The notes under the pieces are model-generated. The model was not told the DNA's origin, did no database searches, and saw only the letters and a list, made by a program, of their open reading frames with translations. From contig NZ_CP144164.1 of assembly GCF_037478005.1 (NCBI RefSeq), positions 558,001-622,000 on the forward strand: a stretch of 64,000 nucleotides of DNA, read 5' to 3'. How positions within the stretch are numbered: position 1 is the stretch's first letter; the number at the start of each line of letters is the position of its first letter. This DNA is from Alteromonas sp. M12. GTDB taxonomy: Bacteria; Pseudomonadota; Gammaproteobacteria; Enterobacterales; Alteromonadaceae. Shown in pieces: positions 28,251-33,267 of the stretch. The translations under genes were made by a program, and so were the position numbers.

Positions 28251-30392
28251 TCAGTTTGATTGTTGTTTATCAGAATGTTTCTCTGTTATTAGAAGTTCAC
28301 AAAACTCTTCAAATGGTAGGGGTTTGCTGAATAAATATCCTTGCGCAGTATTACATTTATTATCGAGTAAAAACTTAGCCTGATATTGATTCTCAACCCC
28401 TTCAGCAATAACCCCTAATTTTAAGCTGTGTGCCATGGCAATCACGGCCAAAATAATCGCTTTGTCATTCTCGTTCTGTTCTAAATCAATAACAAAAGAG
28501 CGATCTATTTTAAGGTTATCGATAGGTAACTTTTGCAAATAAGAAAGGGAACTATAGCCAGTTCCAAAGTCATCGATTGAAGTAGAAATACCAATTTTTC
28601 TCACTTGGTCTAATAAGTTTTTAACTTTGTCATAATTATCAATTAATACCCCTTCAGTTAGCTCTAATTCCAAGTTTTTGGATGGAATCCCACTGTGCAG
28701 AATGGCTTGAGTAACAAAATCAAACAAGTGTCTATCGGCAACTTGACGAGGAGATAAGTTGACCGATACTTTTAGATTAGGCTGATGTTGAATAATCACT
28801 TTCAACATATCTGTCGCACGACTAATCACCCATTTGCCAATAGGTACTATTAACCCGGTCTGCTCTGCAAGAGGAATAAACTTATCTGGGCTGGTTATAG
28901 TGCCATCAGCTAAGCGCCAGCGAATTAACGCCTCTGCTTTAGCGATTTTGCCCGTGCTTAAATCGATGATTGGCTGTAAATAGAGTTCAAACTGATTTTC
29001 ATCGATGGCTTTTTTAAGCGCATTTTCTAATTCAAGCCTGTGCATTGATGCTTCTTTAAGGGCTTTTGAGTAAAAACGCAATTTGCTCTTATCTTCTTTT
29101 TTAGCGGAAAACATGGCTAAGTCGGCAAACTTCATTAACTCTTCAGAATCTGACGCATCACTAGGGAAATGGGCCGCACCGAGATTGAGTCCAATCTGCA
29201 CCTTTTGTTTTGATTCGGTATAAAAAGGAAATTCGGTTGCTTCTATTAAACGATTGGCAAACTCAATACAGTCTGATTGCTCTTTAGCTCCGGATAAAAT
29301 AATACCAAACTCATTACCTCCAACCCGTGCACATAAATCCGCTGTAGATAAACATTGTTGGATCCGCTCAGCGAGAGTCACCAATATATGGTCACCAGCT
29401 TGATGACCATGTAATTCATTGATTTGTTTAAAGTGTTTTACATCCAAGTAAACGATGAAAAATGGTTTATCTTTCTCAATTTGGTGTTCTAATTTTTGCC
29501 AGAAAAATTGCCGATTGGGAAGATTGGTAACATTATCATAGAGATTTAACTTTTCATTTCTTTGTAATAGGTATTTGACGCGACTGACATCGCTGAAAAT
29601 GAATATCCAATTTTGCAAATTTTGCATTTCGTCGGTAACTGGATATAACGCTAACTTTAACCACTTGCTAGAATACGGCGGTTTATGCCAAAAAAGCTCT
29701 CCATGCCAGCGACTGCCAGTTTCAAAGACCCGCTCAAACTCAGCACATTGGTGTTTAAACAATTCGAGTAAAATCGTAAAGGGGGAAGCCTCATTGGATA
29801 CTTCAGAGGTTTCGAAAAAACTATAAGAATTTGGGTTTTGGCTAATGATATTTAATTGGGAATCGGTAATTACTACACCAAAGTCGGCATTTTCAATGAC
29901 CTGCTTAATCGGCTCTTGTAATGATTGTAGTGTCTGGTTTTCACGAAGAACTTGATCTAAACGTTCATGAATATACTCGTGTTGGGCGAGGATTTTATCA
30001 TTTGATATCAGCAGTTCGCGGGCCACCTGCAGAGTTTGTTGTTGTTTTTTGTATTCTGCTTGCAAATTGTGAATGACTAAATAAGCTTCGCCCTTTGAAA
30101 CTGCTGCAATGGCTTCTAAACGTAATAAATCATCTTTGGATTGTTCGGACCAAATCCCCGACTGAATTTGCCCATCATTACCAATTTGCCAAAAATCTTC
30201 GGCATCAATAAAAAAGTCTTCTAAGTAGGCGGAGTTACCAATAAATTCGAAAAATTCGCTGCCAATTGCCTCTGGCGCTATAGCATAAAACCAATCTTCA
30301 CTGCAGTGTAATAATTGGAATTTACGATTTTCTACTCGCTTTAAAATCGCGCAGTTAATAATGCCTAAAGCTTGAATAAGTGATTGTTGCAT
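28251..30392 (-). CDS. PAS-GGDEF-EAL protein, probable cyclic-di-GMP phosphodiesterase
   Basis: 713 residues. N-terminal part (1-110) of unknown type, then a coiled segment (about 112-155). A PAS-like domain lies at 163-270 (ENADFGVVITDSQLNIISQN), GGDEF at about 283-440 and EAL at 455-700. The GGDEF motif is GGNEF (358-362), so cyclase activity is probably lost or weak. The EAL domain keeps AEALIRW (487-491 region), VNLSPRQVA, ELTEGVLID, DDFGTGYSSLSYL, KIDRSFV and AEGVEN, so hydrolysis of c-di-GMP is likely. No membrane span is evident. It is the last gene of a four-gene operon, 6 bp after the GTPase. Confidence 0.85.
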   Translation of the reverse strand: MQQSLIQALGIINCAILKRVENRKFQLLHCSEDWFYAIAPEAIGSEFFEFIGNSAYLEDFFIDAEDFWQIGNDGQIQSGIWSEQSKDDLLRLEAIAAVSKGEAYLVIHNLQAEYKKQQQTLQVARELLISNDKILAQHEYIHERLDQVLRENQTLQSLQEPIKQVIENADFGVVITDSQLNIISQNPNSYSFFETSEVSNEASPFTILLELFKHQCAEFERVFETGSRWHGELFWHKPPYSSKWLKLALYPVTDEMQNLQNWIFIFSDVSRVKYLLQRNEKLNLYDNVTNLPNRQFFWQKLEHQIEKDKPFFIVYLDVKHFKQINELHGHQAGDHILVTLAERIQQCLSTADLCARVGGNEFGIILSGAKEQSDCIEFANRLIEATEFPFYTESKQKVQIGLNLGAAHFPSDASDSEELMKFADLAMFSAKKEDKSKLRFYSKALKEASMHRLELENALKKAIDENQFELYLQPIIDLSTGKIAKAEALIRWRLADGTITSPDKFIPLAEQTGLIVPIGKWVISRATDMLKVIIQHQPNLKVSVNLSPRQVADRHLFDFVTQAILHSGIPSKNLELELTEGVLIDNYDKVKNLLDQVRKIGISTSIDDFGTGYSSLSYLQKLPIDNLKIDRSFVIDLEQNENDKAIILAVIAMAHSLKLGVIAEGVENQYQAKFLLDNKCNTAQGYLFSKPLPFEEFCELLITEKHSDKQQSN

Positions 30393-30398
30393 AATTGA

Positions 30399-30890
30399 TT
30401 AATTCAACGTTAGTTGCGCGATAAATTTGAACATTTCTTCAACCTGGTCGCCTGTTTTGGCGCTAGTTGAAAAACTGCGAATAAATTCTTTGCTGTAGCC
30501 ATTGAGCTCATTTTCAGTCCAATGCCAAGCTACATCAAGGTCGCTTTTATTAATAATTAGAATTGCAGGAATATCGCTTATTTCTCTTACCATGCGATGA
30601 ATTTCCATTCCTTCTACAAGACTTTGAGAGCGTGTTTGGTCGGTTACTATTGCGTAAGCTGAGGCCCCTCTAAGGTATTTAGGTTGAAACCCACAGTAGC
30701 GGTCAATCCCTTCTAAATCCCAAATCATAAGTTGCACTTGTTCGACTACTAAATCTACAAGTTTTTTATCAATTTTGACACCAATTGTGGTCAGGTATTT
30801 TTCAGAAAAAATACCTTCAACAAATTGCTTTACCAAACTGGTTTTCCCTACTCCCGAGGGGCCAAGTAGGCAAATCTTTTTTTGCAACAT
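30399..30890 (-). CDS. Rab/Ras-like small GTPase, atypical switch II
   Basis: 163 residues, a single small G domain. G1 is GPSGVGKTS (10-18), switch I contains TTIGV (34-38), G4 is NKSD (114-117) and G5 TSAK (142-145). Switch II reads IWDLEGIDRY (56-65) where Rab proteins have IWDTAGQERF. The catalytic Gln is replaced by Ile and the Ala by Glu, so intrinsic hydrolysis is probably slow. It lacks a prenylation motif. Overall it resembles eukaryotic Rab more than MglA or Era. It sits 20 bp after a membrane OmpA-like protein and 6 bp before an EAL protein, suggesting it switches this complex. Confidence 0.85.
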   Translation of the reverse strand: MLQKKICLLGPSGVGKTSLVKQFVEGIFSEKYLTTIGVKIDKKLVDLVVEQVQLMIWDLEGIDRYCGFQPKYLRGASAYAIVTDQTRSQSLVEGMEIHRMVREISDIPAILIINKSDLDVAWHWTENELNGYSKEFIRSFSTSAKTGDQVEEMFKFIAQLTLN

Positions 30891-30910
30891 AATGCGGTTG
30901 ATGTCCTTAT

Positions 30911-32680
30911 TTAATCAGTCTTAAAATTGATGATATTAAAAATCACTTTACGTAATCCTGAGCCCGACGCTTTATTTTCTACAACACCCAATCCTATGGC
31001 ATTTAAATACTGAGCCTCAATTCCTTGCTCAACTAAAAATTGCCGAGCTGCTAATGCCCGTTTTCGACTTAAAGACTGATTAAATTGCATGGAGCCAGTT
31101 GAATCACTTGCGCCCATAATAATCAAGCCTACATTTAACTCCAATTTTTTAGACAATTCAATCGCTGCTTTAAGGTAACTCGCTAGGGCAGCTAATTGCT
31201 CTTGTGCCTTTTCGTTGAGTTCACTTTGGCCTTGTTCAAATTCAACCTGGGTACTATCTATTTTTGCCCTATTGATTTCGAAAAGTGCCGAGAGTATTTC
31301 TGGACTATCATCATTGATTGTAGCCAATTCTTCGGCGCTGATCCCAGAAATTAACTCTTCCGCATAAGTTAAACCTGGAATGGCATGTATTTCTCTGGCT
31401 AACGCTAAGCGCTGAACGTTTGGCAGTACACCGCTTAAAACAGGTACAGAAGATTGCCAATCAACGCTTATTTGTGGGTATCGGTCTAATAACTTTTTGA
31501 GTCTAGCCTTAACCAATGGTGCTTCTAGGGATAAATATTGTTTTTCAATTACTTGTACACTGCTGGTATCGATTTGCTTTTCAGACATCCATTGCCTTAC
31601 GGTTATGGCCTCGGGGTCACGTAAGATTGACAGCTTGATATCCTGCCATCCTGCTCGTTCTAATTTACTTATGATGATACCCGGTTGTTTACCGATTTGC
31701 GAAACGTTTTCTAGTAGTTGAGTGTGTTGGTAATTGTTAAATCCTAAATAGCCTAATCCGATGAAAATGAGTAACAGCAAACCAATGGCGAGAATCGGTT
31801 TTCTTTTTCGTTTTTTTATTGCTTCCGGGCGCATCTCCGCAACCAAACAATCTCGAAGTTGTTGGGAGGTGGGTTCAAACACAATAGTATCGCCATTGAA
31901 ATTAGCAATTTCTTTGGCATAGAGCTTATGAATATACTCATTGGTAATTTCAAATTTGGTAGATATATCTTGTGGGATATTACCCGTAACAGCAGCGACC
32001 AAAAGCAACCTTGGCCCGCGCTTTATCAGCAACGAAAAATCTTCGGTTTTTATAACCTCTAGATTTTGTTCTGTGGATTCTTGTTGTGAATTAAATGAAT
32101 CAGATACAAAGTCATTTATTGCCGTCAGCATTGCTGAAACAAGATCTCCATCGGCAGATTCATTAACCGATTGAGATACCGAATTAAGTAAAATCCCAGT
32201 TTCCCGGTGGATTAACAAAACTTGCTCAACTTTAAATACGAAAGTTTGACTCGCCACATATTGAGAAAAGCTTACGCCTGATTGCCACGCTTTAAAGCGC
32301 CAGGCCATCCCTTTAAACGTCAGGCTATTTTCAATTAATACATTGGTTTTTTCTAAAAATTCACTTAGAAATGAGGTGACAGATTTACGAACTAAGCGAC
32401 CTACAAGTGGGTATAAATAACCAACAAATTGTTCACTCTGTTCTTTGACTGATTTTTCCACTGACTGCTGCACGACGGGAGTCAGCACGTTGGTGAATTC
32501 GTCATTGCGTTTTTGCCGATCGTGAATCGCTTCAATCACAACCTCGCCGACAATTTCACGCGCATTGTCTTTGAGGACTTGTTTAATTTGTTCTCGATTT
32601 TTCCCCAATAAAAGCTCACGCAGCTGTTGCATGGCTACGTCATCTTCATGTGGTTCGCTGTTATTTGGATGGTCAGCCAT
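30911..32680 (-). CDS. Single-span inner membrane protein: cytoplasmic roadblock-like region, periplasmic OmpA-like domain
   Basis: 589 residues. Residues 1-120 are charged helices. At about 145-260 a compact alpha/beta region reads VFKVEQVLLIHRETGILLN, DGDLVSAMLTAINDFVSDSF and DFSLLIKRGPRLLLVAAVTG. It looks like a roadblock/longin-type fold, the usual partner fold of small GTPases; this is my inference. A membrane span lies at 295-313 after a KKRKRK stop. The periplasmic part has a BON-like stretch (about 340-435) and an OmpA-type peptidoglycan-binding domain (475-589, with GASDSTGSMQFNQSLSRKRA). The N-terminal half is thus cytoplasmic, facing the GTPase encoded next. It starts 11 bp after the coiled-coil gene. 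Confidence 0.78.
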   Translation of the reverse strand: MADHPNNSEPHEDDVAMQQLRELLLGKNREQIKQVLKDNAREIVGEVVIEAIHDRQKRNDEFTNVLTPVVQQSVEKSVKEQSEQFVGYLYPLVGRLVRKSVTSFLSEFLEKTNVLIENSLTFKGMAWRFKAWQSGVSFSQYVASQTFVFKVEQVLLIHRETGILLNSVSQSVNESADGDLVSAMLTAINDFVSDSFNSQQESTEQNLEVIKTEDFSLLIKRGPRLLLVAAVTGNIPQDISTKFEITNEYIHKLYAKEIANFNGDTIVFEPTSQQLRDCLVAEMRPEAIKKRKRKPILAIGLLLLIFIGLGYLGFNNYQHTQLLENVSQIGKQPGIIISKLERAGWQDIKLSILRDPEAITVRQWMSEKQIDTSSVQVIEKQYLSLEAPLVKARLKKLLDRYPQISVDWQSSVPVLSGVLPNVQRLALAREIHAIPGLTYAEELISGISAEELATINDDSPEILSALFEINRAKIDSTQVEFEQGQSELNEKAQEQLAALASYLKAAIELSKKLELNVGLIIMGASDSTGSMQFNQSLSRKRALAARQFLVEQGIEAQYLNAIGLGVVENKASGSGLRKVIFNIINFKTD

Positions 32681-32691
32681 AAAAATTGGCT

Positions 32692-33243
32692 TTAATCTTC
32701 GTCAGATTCTAAATTAACAGCCATGGTTGCAAGTAGTTTGGCCAACGTCTTCCTATCTGTTTTAGTTGAACTGAGTTCTTTGGTAACCTGATCCAACCTT
32801 TCCAACGCTTCGGCAAATCGAGCGTCATATTTCTCGGTGAGCATGGCAACTTCTTTATCAACTCTAGTATGCAGTTCGTCAGTCTCTTGACGGCCATTGG
32901 TGTCTGACATTTCTAATTCAGAAGATAGTTTGTCGGCATAGGCGTTAAGTTCAGAGGTTTTATCTTCGTACACTTTGTCCACTGAGTTAACTTTAAGCTG
33001 TAAATCTTCAAAGCCATTGTGCATGGATTTATTCAGGTCTTTGACGTGTTCTGCTAACTTTTGTTCAGCTTGTTGGAAGCGTTCTAACATTCGGCTTTCT
33101 AAATCTGACAACCTATGTTCAATATCTGCTTGTGCAGCACCGAACACTATTTGTCGTAAAGTAGCTAGTTCTGATGGGGTTTCGCTACTGATATTGGGGG
33201 TCTCATCGACTACGGTTTTATTGTCTGACTTGTTATTCGCCAC
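32692..33243 (-). CDS. Coiled-coil protein, first gene of the GTPase operon
   Basis: About 183 residues from a GTG at 33243, which is 6 bp behind AAGGAAG. An ATG at 33267 would add eight residues. It has no signal or membrane segment. Residues from about 35 to 165 show heptad-like repeats (HRLSDLESRMLERFQQAEQKLAEH... pattern), so a long coiled coil is expected. The acidic tail ends NLESDED. I do not recognise a family with a known function. Its place ahead of the membrane protein and GTPase suggests a scaffold or adaptor of the same complex. Confidence 0.75.
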   Translation of the reverse strand: MANNKSDNKTVVDETPNISSETPSELATLRQIVFGAAQADIEHRLSDLESRMLERFQQAEQKLAEHVKDLNKSMHNGFEDLQLKVNSVDKVYEDKTSELNAYADKLSSELEMSDTNGRQETDELHTRVDKEVAMLTEKYDARFAEALERLDQVTKELSSTKTDRKTLAKLLATMAVNLESDED

Positions 33244-33267
33244 TTTCACTTCCTTCTGCTTAAACAC

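Follow-up and report, generated by a model that had tools for sequence, protein, structure and literature searches.

Layout of the operon

The window analyzed here is a 64,000-nucleotide stretch of the genome of Alteromonas sp. M12 (contig NZ_CP144164.1, positions 558,001 to 622,000), and this report concerns a four-gene operon within it that is assigned below to the Rup systems. Rup GTPases belong to the prokaryotic part of the Ras/Rab superfamily. Four minus-strand open reading frames (ORFs) span window positions 28251 to 33243 in the order coiled-coil protein, OmpA-type membrane protein, small GTPase and PAS-GGDEF-EAL protein, with intergenic gaps of 11, 20 and 6 bp. An initial annotation had placed the four ORFs here, on one strand and with these gaps, and the ORF calls bore this out. 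The genes are as follows.

32692..33243, minus strand: coiled-coil protein, 183 amino acids (aa), ATG start at 33243; an N-terminal LRxIVFG motif resembles one in the membrane protein
30911..32680, minus strand: single-span membrane protein, 589 aa, with a cytoplasmic helical region, a longin-like domain (predicted), a transmembrane (TM) helix, a periplasmic part and an OmpA domain
30399..30890, minus strand: Rab/Ras-like small GTPase, 163 aa; G1 GPSGVGKTS, G3 WDLEGID (no Gln), G4 NKSD, G5 TSAK
28251..30392, minus strand: PAS-like/PAS/GGDEF (GGNEF)/EAL protein, 713 aa

The source genome (5.01 Mb, one contig) contains one copy of the operon. The coiled-coil label was based on weak Pfam matches to coiled-coil proteins and on inspection, and an alternative GTG start at 33267 would give this gene 191 aa. 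The Rab-like GTPase, OmpA, GGDEF and EAL assignments of the initial annotation were all recovered by Pfam (Ras, 94.8 bits, E = 5.5e-27; OmpA, 8.5e-11; GGDEF, 5.4e-40; EAL, 3.9e-73). In the EAL protein the GGDEF and EAL parts were clear, while the PAS domain was matched by PAS_9 at only 19.5 bits, under the 27-bit cut-off. Not contained in that annotation were an extra N-terminal PAS-like domain in the EAL protein, the longin-like cytoplasmic domain and the prior publication of the gene set.

The GTPase and its assignment to Group 1 Rup

Relatives of the operon were taken as the best 80 of 174 GTPase relatives from one genome-contig scan; these loci are not independent, since GTPase similarity was the basis of selection and some of them are closely related. 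The window GTPase carries the Ras-superfamily motifs G1, G3 (DxxG), G4 and G5, and its nearest solved sequences were Rab35, Rab23 and Sec4. The best named match, on an Aliiglaciecola lipolytica contig, was 100% identical across 163 residues. G1 (GxxxVGKTS), NKxD and the W, D, G and D of WDxxGxD were kept in all 81 GTPases (window plus 80 loci), and SAK was kept in 80, the remaining sequence being short. The catalytic Gln of G3 is missing from the window GTPase. Residue 62, which we take to be the Rab Gln position (as also seen in the alignment with solved Rabs), was I in 40 sequences, E in 17, V in 12, N in 7, T in 3, A in 1 and S in 1, and was Q in none of the 81. An MglA-type system was considered and rejected, there being no match to PF03259, the family of Roadblock/MglB partners, at E ≤ 0.001 in the genome of the window.

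In the excerpted text of Wuichet and Sogaard-Andersen (PMC4316618), Group 1 Rup GTPase genes neighbor three others, encoding a coiled-coil protein, a protein whose unknown domain often has a TM helix and OmpA after it, and an output protein. Typical outputs are described there as diguanylate cyclase/phosphodiesterase fusions or histidine kinases with an invariant N-terminal Gln, and the GTPases as being without the G3 Gln, for which supply in trans was suggested. The window operon has the same features: a G1-to-G5 GTPase, no G3 Gln, coiled-coil and domain-TM-OmpA neighbors and an output with an N-terminal Gln. By motifs and gene set, rather than by tree position, it is assigned to Group 1 Rup and is thus of a known kind. 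The remark in the initial annotation that no well-described pathway contains this set was half right, since no Rup protein had been characterized by 2014, according to the same excerpts, but the neighborhood and a hypothetical model for it are given there. No later characterization of Rup proteins was found in the literature searched, a limited set, within which no paper was returned as a published link for the reading of the operon proposed below.

Conservation and distribution

The loci were scored with a profile for each operon part. All four parts (coiled-coil protein, membrane protein, GTPase and output N-terminus) were present in order on one strand in 67 of the 80 loci, and a further seven had the first three parts only (L085, L117, L120, L121, L127, L129 and L130). 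The coiled-coil gene was missing from L135, which lies at a contig edge, and L136 was scored as GTPase only owing to an over-long ORF and actually has the first three parts in order. Only the GTPase and output were found in that order in L115, L122, L124 and L134. The coiled-coil and membrane-protein genes adjoin on the opposite strand in L115 and L124, a membrane-protein gene and an additional output gene lie farther upstream in L134, and the L122 locus gave no coiled-coil or membrane-protein match. Loss of gene order among relatives had been named beforehand as grounds for giving up the idea of one functional unit; with the order conserved in 67/80 named loci, the idea passes this test.

As a control, nine flanking genes (whose names are presumptive) were used as queries against the 52 loci with full flanks, L057 to L062 being left out, and matches were counted anywhere in the locus if >40% of the query was covered. 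The flanking genes were matched in 0 to 13 loci and the operon parts in 45 to 51 (EAL protein, 46; its N-terminus, 48; N-terminal part of the membrane protein, 51; coiled-coil protein, 45), the GTPase being present in 52/52 by selection. Co-occurrence of the operon parts exceeds chance.

Within the order to which the window belongs, the GTPase was matched in 14 of 295 genomes, one match (G237) being weak and located in a 1017-aa frame. The membrane-protein query matched 230 of these genomes, nearly always through the OmpA domain alone; full-length matches were obtained in 13 genomes, which are the other 13 GTPase genomes, and adjoined the GTPase each time (two frames in G292). Across the phylum, 51 of 398 genomes had the N-terminal part of the membrane protein, and in 14 of 15 such loci inspected a GTPase adjoins (that of L167 is cut by a contig end), the exception being L163. 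Patchy spread within the order, together with the breaking of genes into several frames in some draft loci, would suit an accessory island whose four genes merely travel together and form no single pathway. Such an island is most improbable in our judgment: the order of coiled-coil, membrane-protein and GTPase genes is kept across lineages ranging from Alteromonadaceae to Acidobacteriota, despite turnover of the genes around them, and all four products have invariant or nearly invariant residues.

The broken genes are membrane-protein or EAL genes (L108, L098, L078 and L046/L074) and are either draft errors or decaying copies.

The membrane protein and its predicted longin-like domain

The following parts of the membrane protein were distinguished.

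32243..32647, minus strand: N-terminal helical region, residues 12-146
31829..32239, minus strand: longin-like domain (predicted), residues 148-284
31730..31795, minus strand: TM helix, residues ~296-317; hydropathy 2.58 over 19 residues
30920..31309, minus strand: OmpA/Pal-like peptidoglycan-binding domain, residues 458-587; Pfam OmpA, 8.5e-11

Residues ~296-317 form the one strongly hydrophobic stretch of the protein and are preceded by KKRKRK, so that the N-terminus should be inside. The helical region contains invariant residues, such as P68, P91, G94, R98 and R128, and was mostly of low confidence when modeled alone, as if its fold needed a partner. The predicted model of the cytoplasmic domain that follows has the longin fold. 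By sequence it matched no longin family in Pfam (E ≤ 1), and it is therefore termed longin-like and left out of those families. The longin-type fold is used by many Rab regulators of human cells, and, if the model is right, such a domain on the cytoplasmic side of a peptidoglycan-anchored protein makes a GTPase platform at that site plausible.

A Roadblock/MglB identity of the cytoplasmic domain had been suspected by eye from a beta-beta-alpha-beta-beta-beta pattern. It was set aside after a local profile comparison with 19 PF03259 stretches (probability, 2.6%) and in view of the predicted model, which favors longin; no Roadblock entries were present among the 50 matches listed for this model.

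Near its N-terminus the coiled-coil protein has the motif [LI]RxxxFG (R in 77, F in 78 and G in 78 of 80 rows), and a similar LRxxxxG occurs in the membrane protein (R in 71 and G in 65 of 81 rows). Among 13 loci compared side by side, the simple motif pattern overlooked a clear motif in two coiled-coil proteins (L125 and L127) and in one membrane protein (L127). A short motif common to two proteins of one operon suggests a shared docking partner or a shared origin.

The periplasmic part between the TM helix and the OmpA domain is enlarged at L161:4652-7723, L158:4333-6765 and L100:5823-8000, where the membrane proteins have 725 to 1023 aa versus 589 here; the enlarged part gave repeated profile matches in L158 and L161.

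The EAL protein and exchangeable outputs

Within the EAL protein, the following features were located.

30063..30353, minus strand: N-terminal PAS-like domain, residues 14-110; the part common to other Rup outputs
30027..30029, minus strand: Gln122, on the helix after the PAS-like domain, in an LQxAR motif; candidate in-trans catalytic glutamine
28320..29024, minus strand: EAL domain, with EAL and DDFGTG motifs intact

EAL occupies residues 487-489, and DDFGTG is at residue 607. In 36 aligned relatives DDFGTG was present in all, and EAL was present in 30, with EVL (4), ETL (1) and ESL (1) in the others. The window protein has GGNEF and hence no intact GG(D/E)EF, and exact GGDEF occurred in 10 of the 36 aligned proteins. 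An intact EAL motif with GGNEF in place of GGDEF fits breakdown of cyclic di-GMP (c-di-GMP) as the output. Gln122 was present in 73 of 73 readable rows of output N-termini and is taken to be the invariant output Gln of the 2014 paper. On the contig shared by L053 and L105, the coiled-coil gene is immediately preceded by a second 713-aa frame like the EAL protein, and this operon may have two EAL proteins.

In other loci the same output N-terminus is joined to histidine kinase domains (L115, L122, L124 and one of the two outputs of L134, the other, of 172 aa, matching no family), to hybrid kinases (L119, L131 and L135) or to HD_5 (L125 and L126), presumably the domain type of HD-GYP proteins. 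A SpoIIE-type phosphatase lies directly after the GTPase in 3/3 loci scanned (L127, L129 and L136), and its N-terminus had no match to the EAL-type one. In the phylum sample, nine proteins beside or over the end of the GTPase gene were scanned; six were class III cyclases (Pfam Guanylate_cyc), two had kinase domains (L165 and L170), and the ninth, an L166 frame on the strand opposite and over the GTPase, had no match and is probably no gene. The N-termini of the cyclases, the phosphatases and the L165 protein resemble each other and likewise lead into a Gln helix. The column matching Gln122 was Gln in 11 of 11 of these N-termini (7 cyclase-type, with L159 counted as such without a domain scan, 3 phosphatases and 1 kinase), three kinases (L117, L120 and L170) of the 14 proteins having been left out of the alignment; where the L170 kinase begins is uncertain, as its frame overlaps the GTPase. 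HD, SpoIIE and cyclase outputs add to the kinds named in the excerpts of PMC4316618.

A single sequence family for all output N-termini was weakly supported, the alignment extending only across the last strand and the Gln helix. Between the EAL/kinase/HD and the cyclase/SpoIIE N-termini the HMMER domain E value was 0.0012 (one cyclase) and the hhalign probability was 7.5%, and in view of this weak match they are treated as two types. Kinases encoded upstream of the coiled-coil gene in Acidobacteriota (L117, L120, L121 and L130) were not counted as Rup outputs; they are hybrid kinases with ordinary PAS domains and had no match to the output N-terminus.

Absence of Gln at residue 62 in 81/81 GTPases and its presence in all alignable output N-termini (73/73 and 11/11), taken with the in-trans glutamine idea in the excerpts of PMC4316618, could mean that signaling runs in reverse. 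The output protein would then be mainly a GTPase-activating protein (GAP), with a PAS-like domain that senses and a Gln helix that turns the GTPase off, and its c-di-GMP activity would be secondary or would report the state of the GTPase. However, the catalytic domain behind the N-terminus is swapped (EAL, HD, kinase, SpoIIE or cyclase), so that the output has the look of an effector rather than of a simple GAP, and four Acidobacteriota loci have no recognized output N-terminus; we consider a reversed direction quite unlikely. The cyclases also bear on the view that the longin-like membrane protein and the GTPase position the enzyme at a pole or septum and leave its activity unchanged. MglA, which places motility machines at one cell site, is a precedent for such an organizer, and the OmpA domain and the coiled-coil protein are in keeping with it. 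Nothing in the data speaks for a polar or septal site, though, and outputs with diffusible products, such as the cyclases, would presumably profit less from placement alone, so a purely spatial role appears unlikely.

A proposed signaling pathway

The reading that we favor, and regard as probable while short of secure, is that this Group 1 Rup operon signals from the envelope via the longin-like domain and the GTPase to the EAL protein. The periplasmic part of the membrane protein would read the state of the wall or envelope and relay it to the longin-like domain by way of the single TM helix. This domain would bind the GTPase and set its nucleotide state in the manner of longin-fold exchange factors acting on Rabs, perhaps with assistance in GTPase binding from the coiled-coil protein via the LRxxxxG motif common to both proteins. 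Once loaded, the GTPase would dock on the EAL protein via the PAS-like domain and locally alter c-di-GMP breakdown; signaling may be terminated when the conserved Gln on the next helix is inserted into the active site of the GTPase. In other bacteria the same chassis would drive other enzymes. The broader proposal, that several phyla share a plug-in chassis in which a Rab-like GTPase and a longin-fold, wall-anchored receptor drive exchangeable second-messenger or phospho-signaling enzymes (two kinds of c-di-GMP phosphodiesterase, class III nucleotide cyclases, histidine kinases and PP2C phosphatases), is put forward more tentatively, as a possibility that we rate somewhat below even. The initial annotation had proposed that the GTPase recruits or activates the EAL enzyme at a peptidoglycan-anchored site. 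As a whole this was partly supported, and the hypothesis of local c-di-GMP control is now sharper.

Several observations weigh against the pathway from envelope to EAL protein. The longin assignment comes from a single predicted model with a predicted template modeling score (pTM) of 0.40, in which ten-residue means of the predicted local distance difference test (pLDDT) were 53-65 at model residues 171-210, the central helix of the domain and the next loop, and 81-92 across the remainder. No Pfam longin family matched the membrane protein at E ≤ 1, the best 50 of 1052 Foldseek matches were OmpA-domain chains only, judging by their titles, and Roadblock proteins gave no match in local profile comparison. 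Longin domains are also found in SNAREs, as stated in the excerpted text of PMC10933270. The PAS call for the output N-terminus came from strand-helix order and from DosP alignments with a root mean square deviation (rmsd) near 36, and the conserved Gln could serve a signaling helix rather than the GTPase. Among the loci, L163:5944-8117 has membrane-protein and coiled-coil genes with no GTPase match within 14 kb. Coiled-coil, membrane-protein and GTPase genes are kept in L085 (Alteromonas profundi), which is missing the EAL gene, and in the four Acidobacteriota loci without a recognized output N-terminus. In L085 the gap sits between the GTPase and a 280-aa gene located after the EAL gene elsewhere in Alteromonas, so that only the output seems to have been lost. 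These loci indicate that the operon parts do not strictly depend on one another.

A longin-like partner, predicted within the same operon, is a concrete candidate for a regulator of Rup GTPases, with a testable interface. If the pathway is real, a pairing of Rab and longin that is mostly treated as archaeal and eukaryotic would also run envelope-to-second-messenger signaling in bacteria. On the broader proposal of a shared chassis, this regulatory pair would exist beyond the archaeal-eukaryotic line, and bacteria would possess a Ras-like switch on a class III cyclase. The exchangeable outputs provide a natural series for locating the GTPase docking site.

Comparison with known systems

The operon agrees with Group 1 Rup systems in its four kinds of gene, in the missing G3 Gln and in an output type with an N-terminal Gln. 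It differs in that the domain given as unknown in the excerpts of PMC4316618 is predicted here to be longin-like. What it shares with MglA/MglB and the actinobacterial conservons is a small bacterial GTPase accompanied by regulators. MglB adopts the Roadblock fold, which is related to longin (excerpts of PMC3521125 and PMC10933270); here, by contrast, PF03259 had no match in the genome, the best solved relatives of the GTPase are Rabs, and the candidate regulator forms one protein with a TM helix and an OmpA domain. The likeness to the eukaryotic longin-type Rab regulators, TRAPP and Fuzzy-Inturned, lies in the predicted fold and, here, in the position of the gene beside that of a Rab-like GTPase. 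In contrast to them, the window protein had no sequence match to a longin family, is a single-span, OmpA-bearing bacterial protein and has a putative exchange role. Compared with DosP and other PAS-GGDEF-EAL phosphodiesterases, the large rmsd means that the domains of the EAL protein are arranged differently, and its first domain, which leads into the Gln helix, is of the family that adjoins Rup GTPases.
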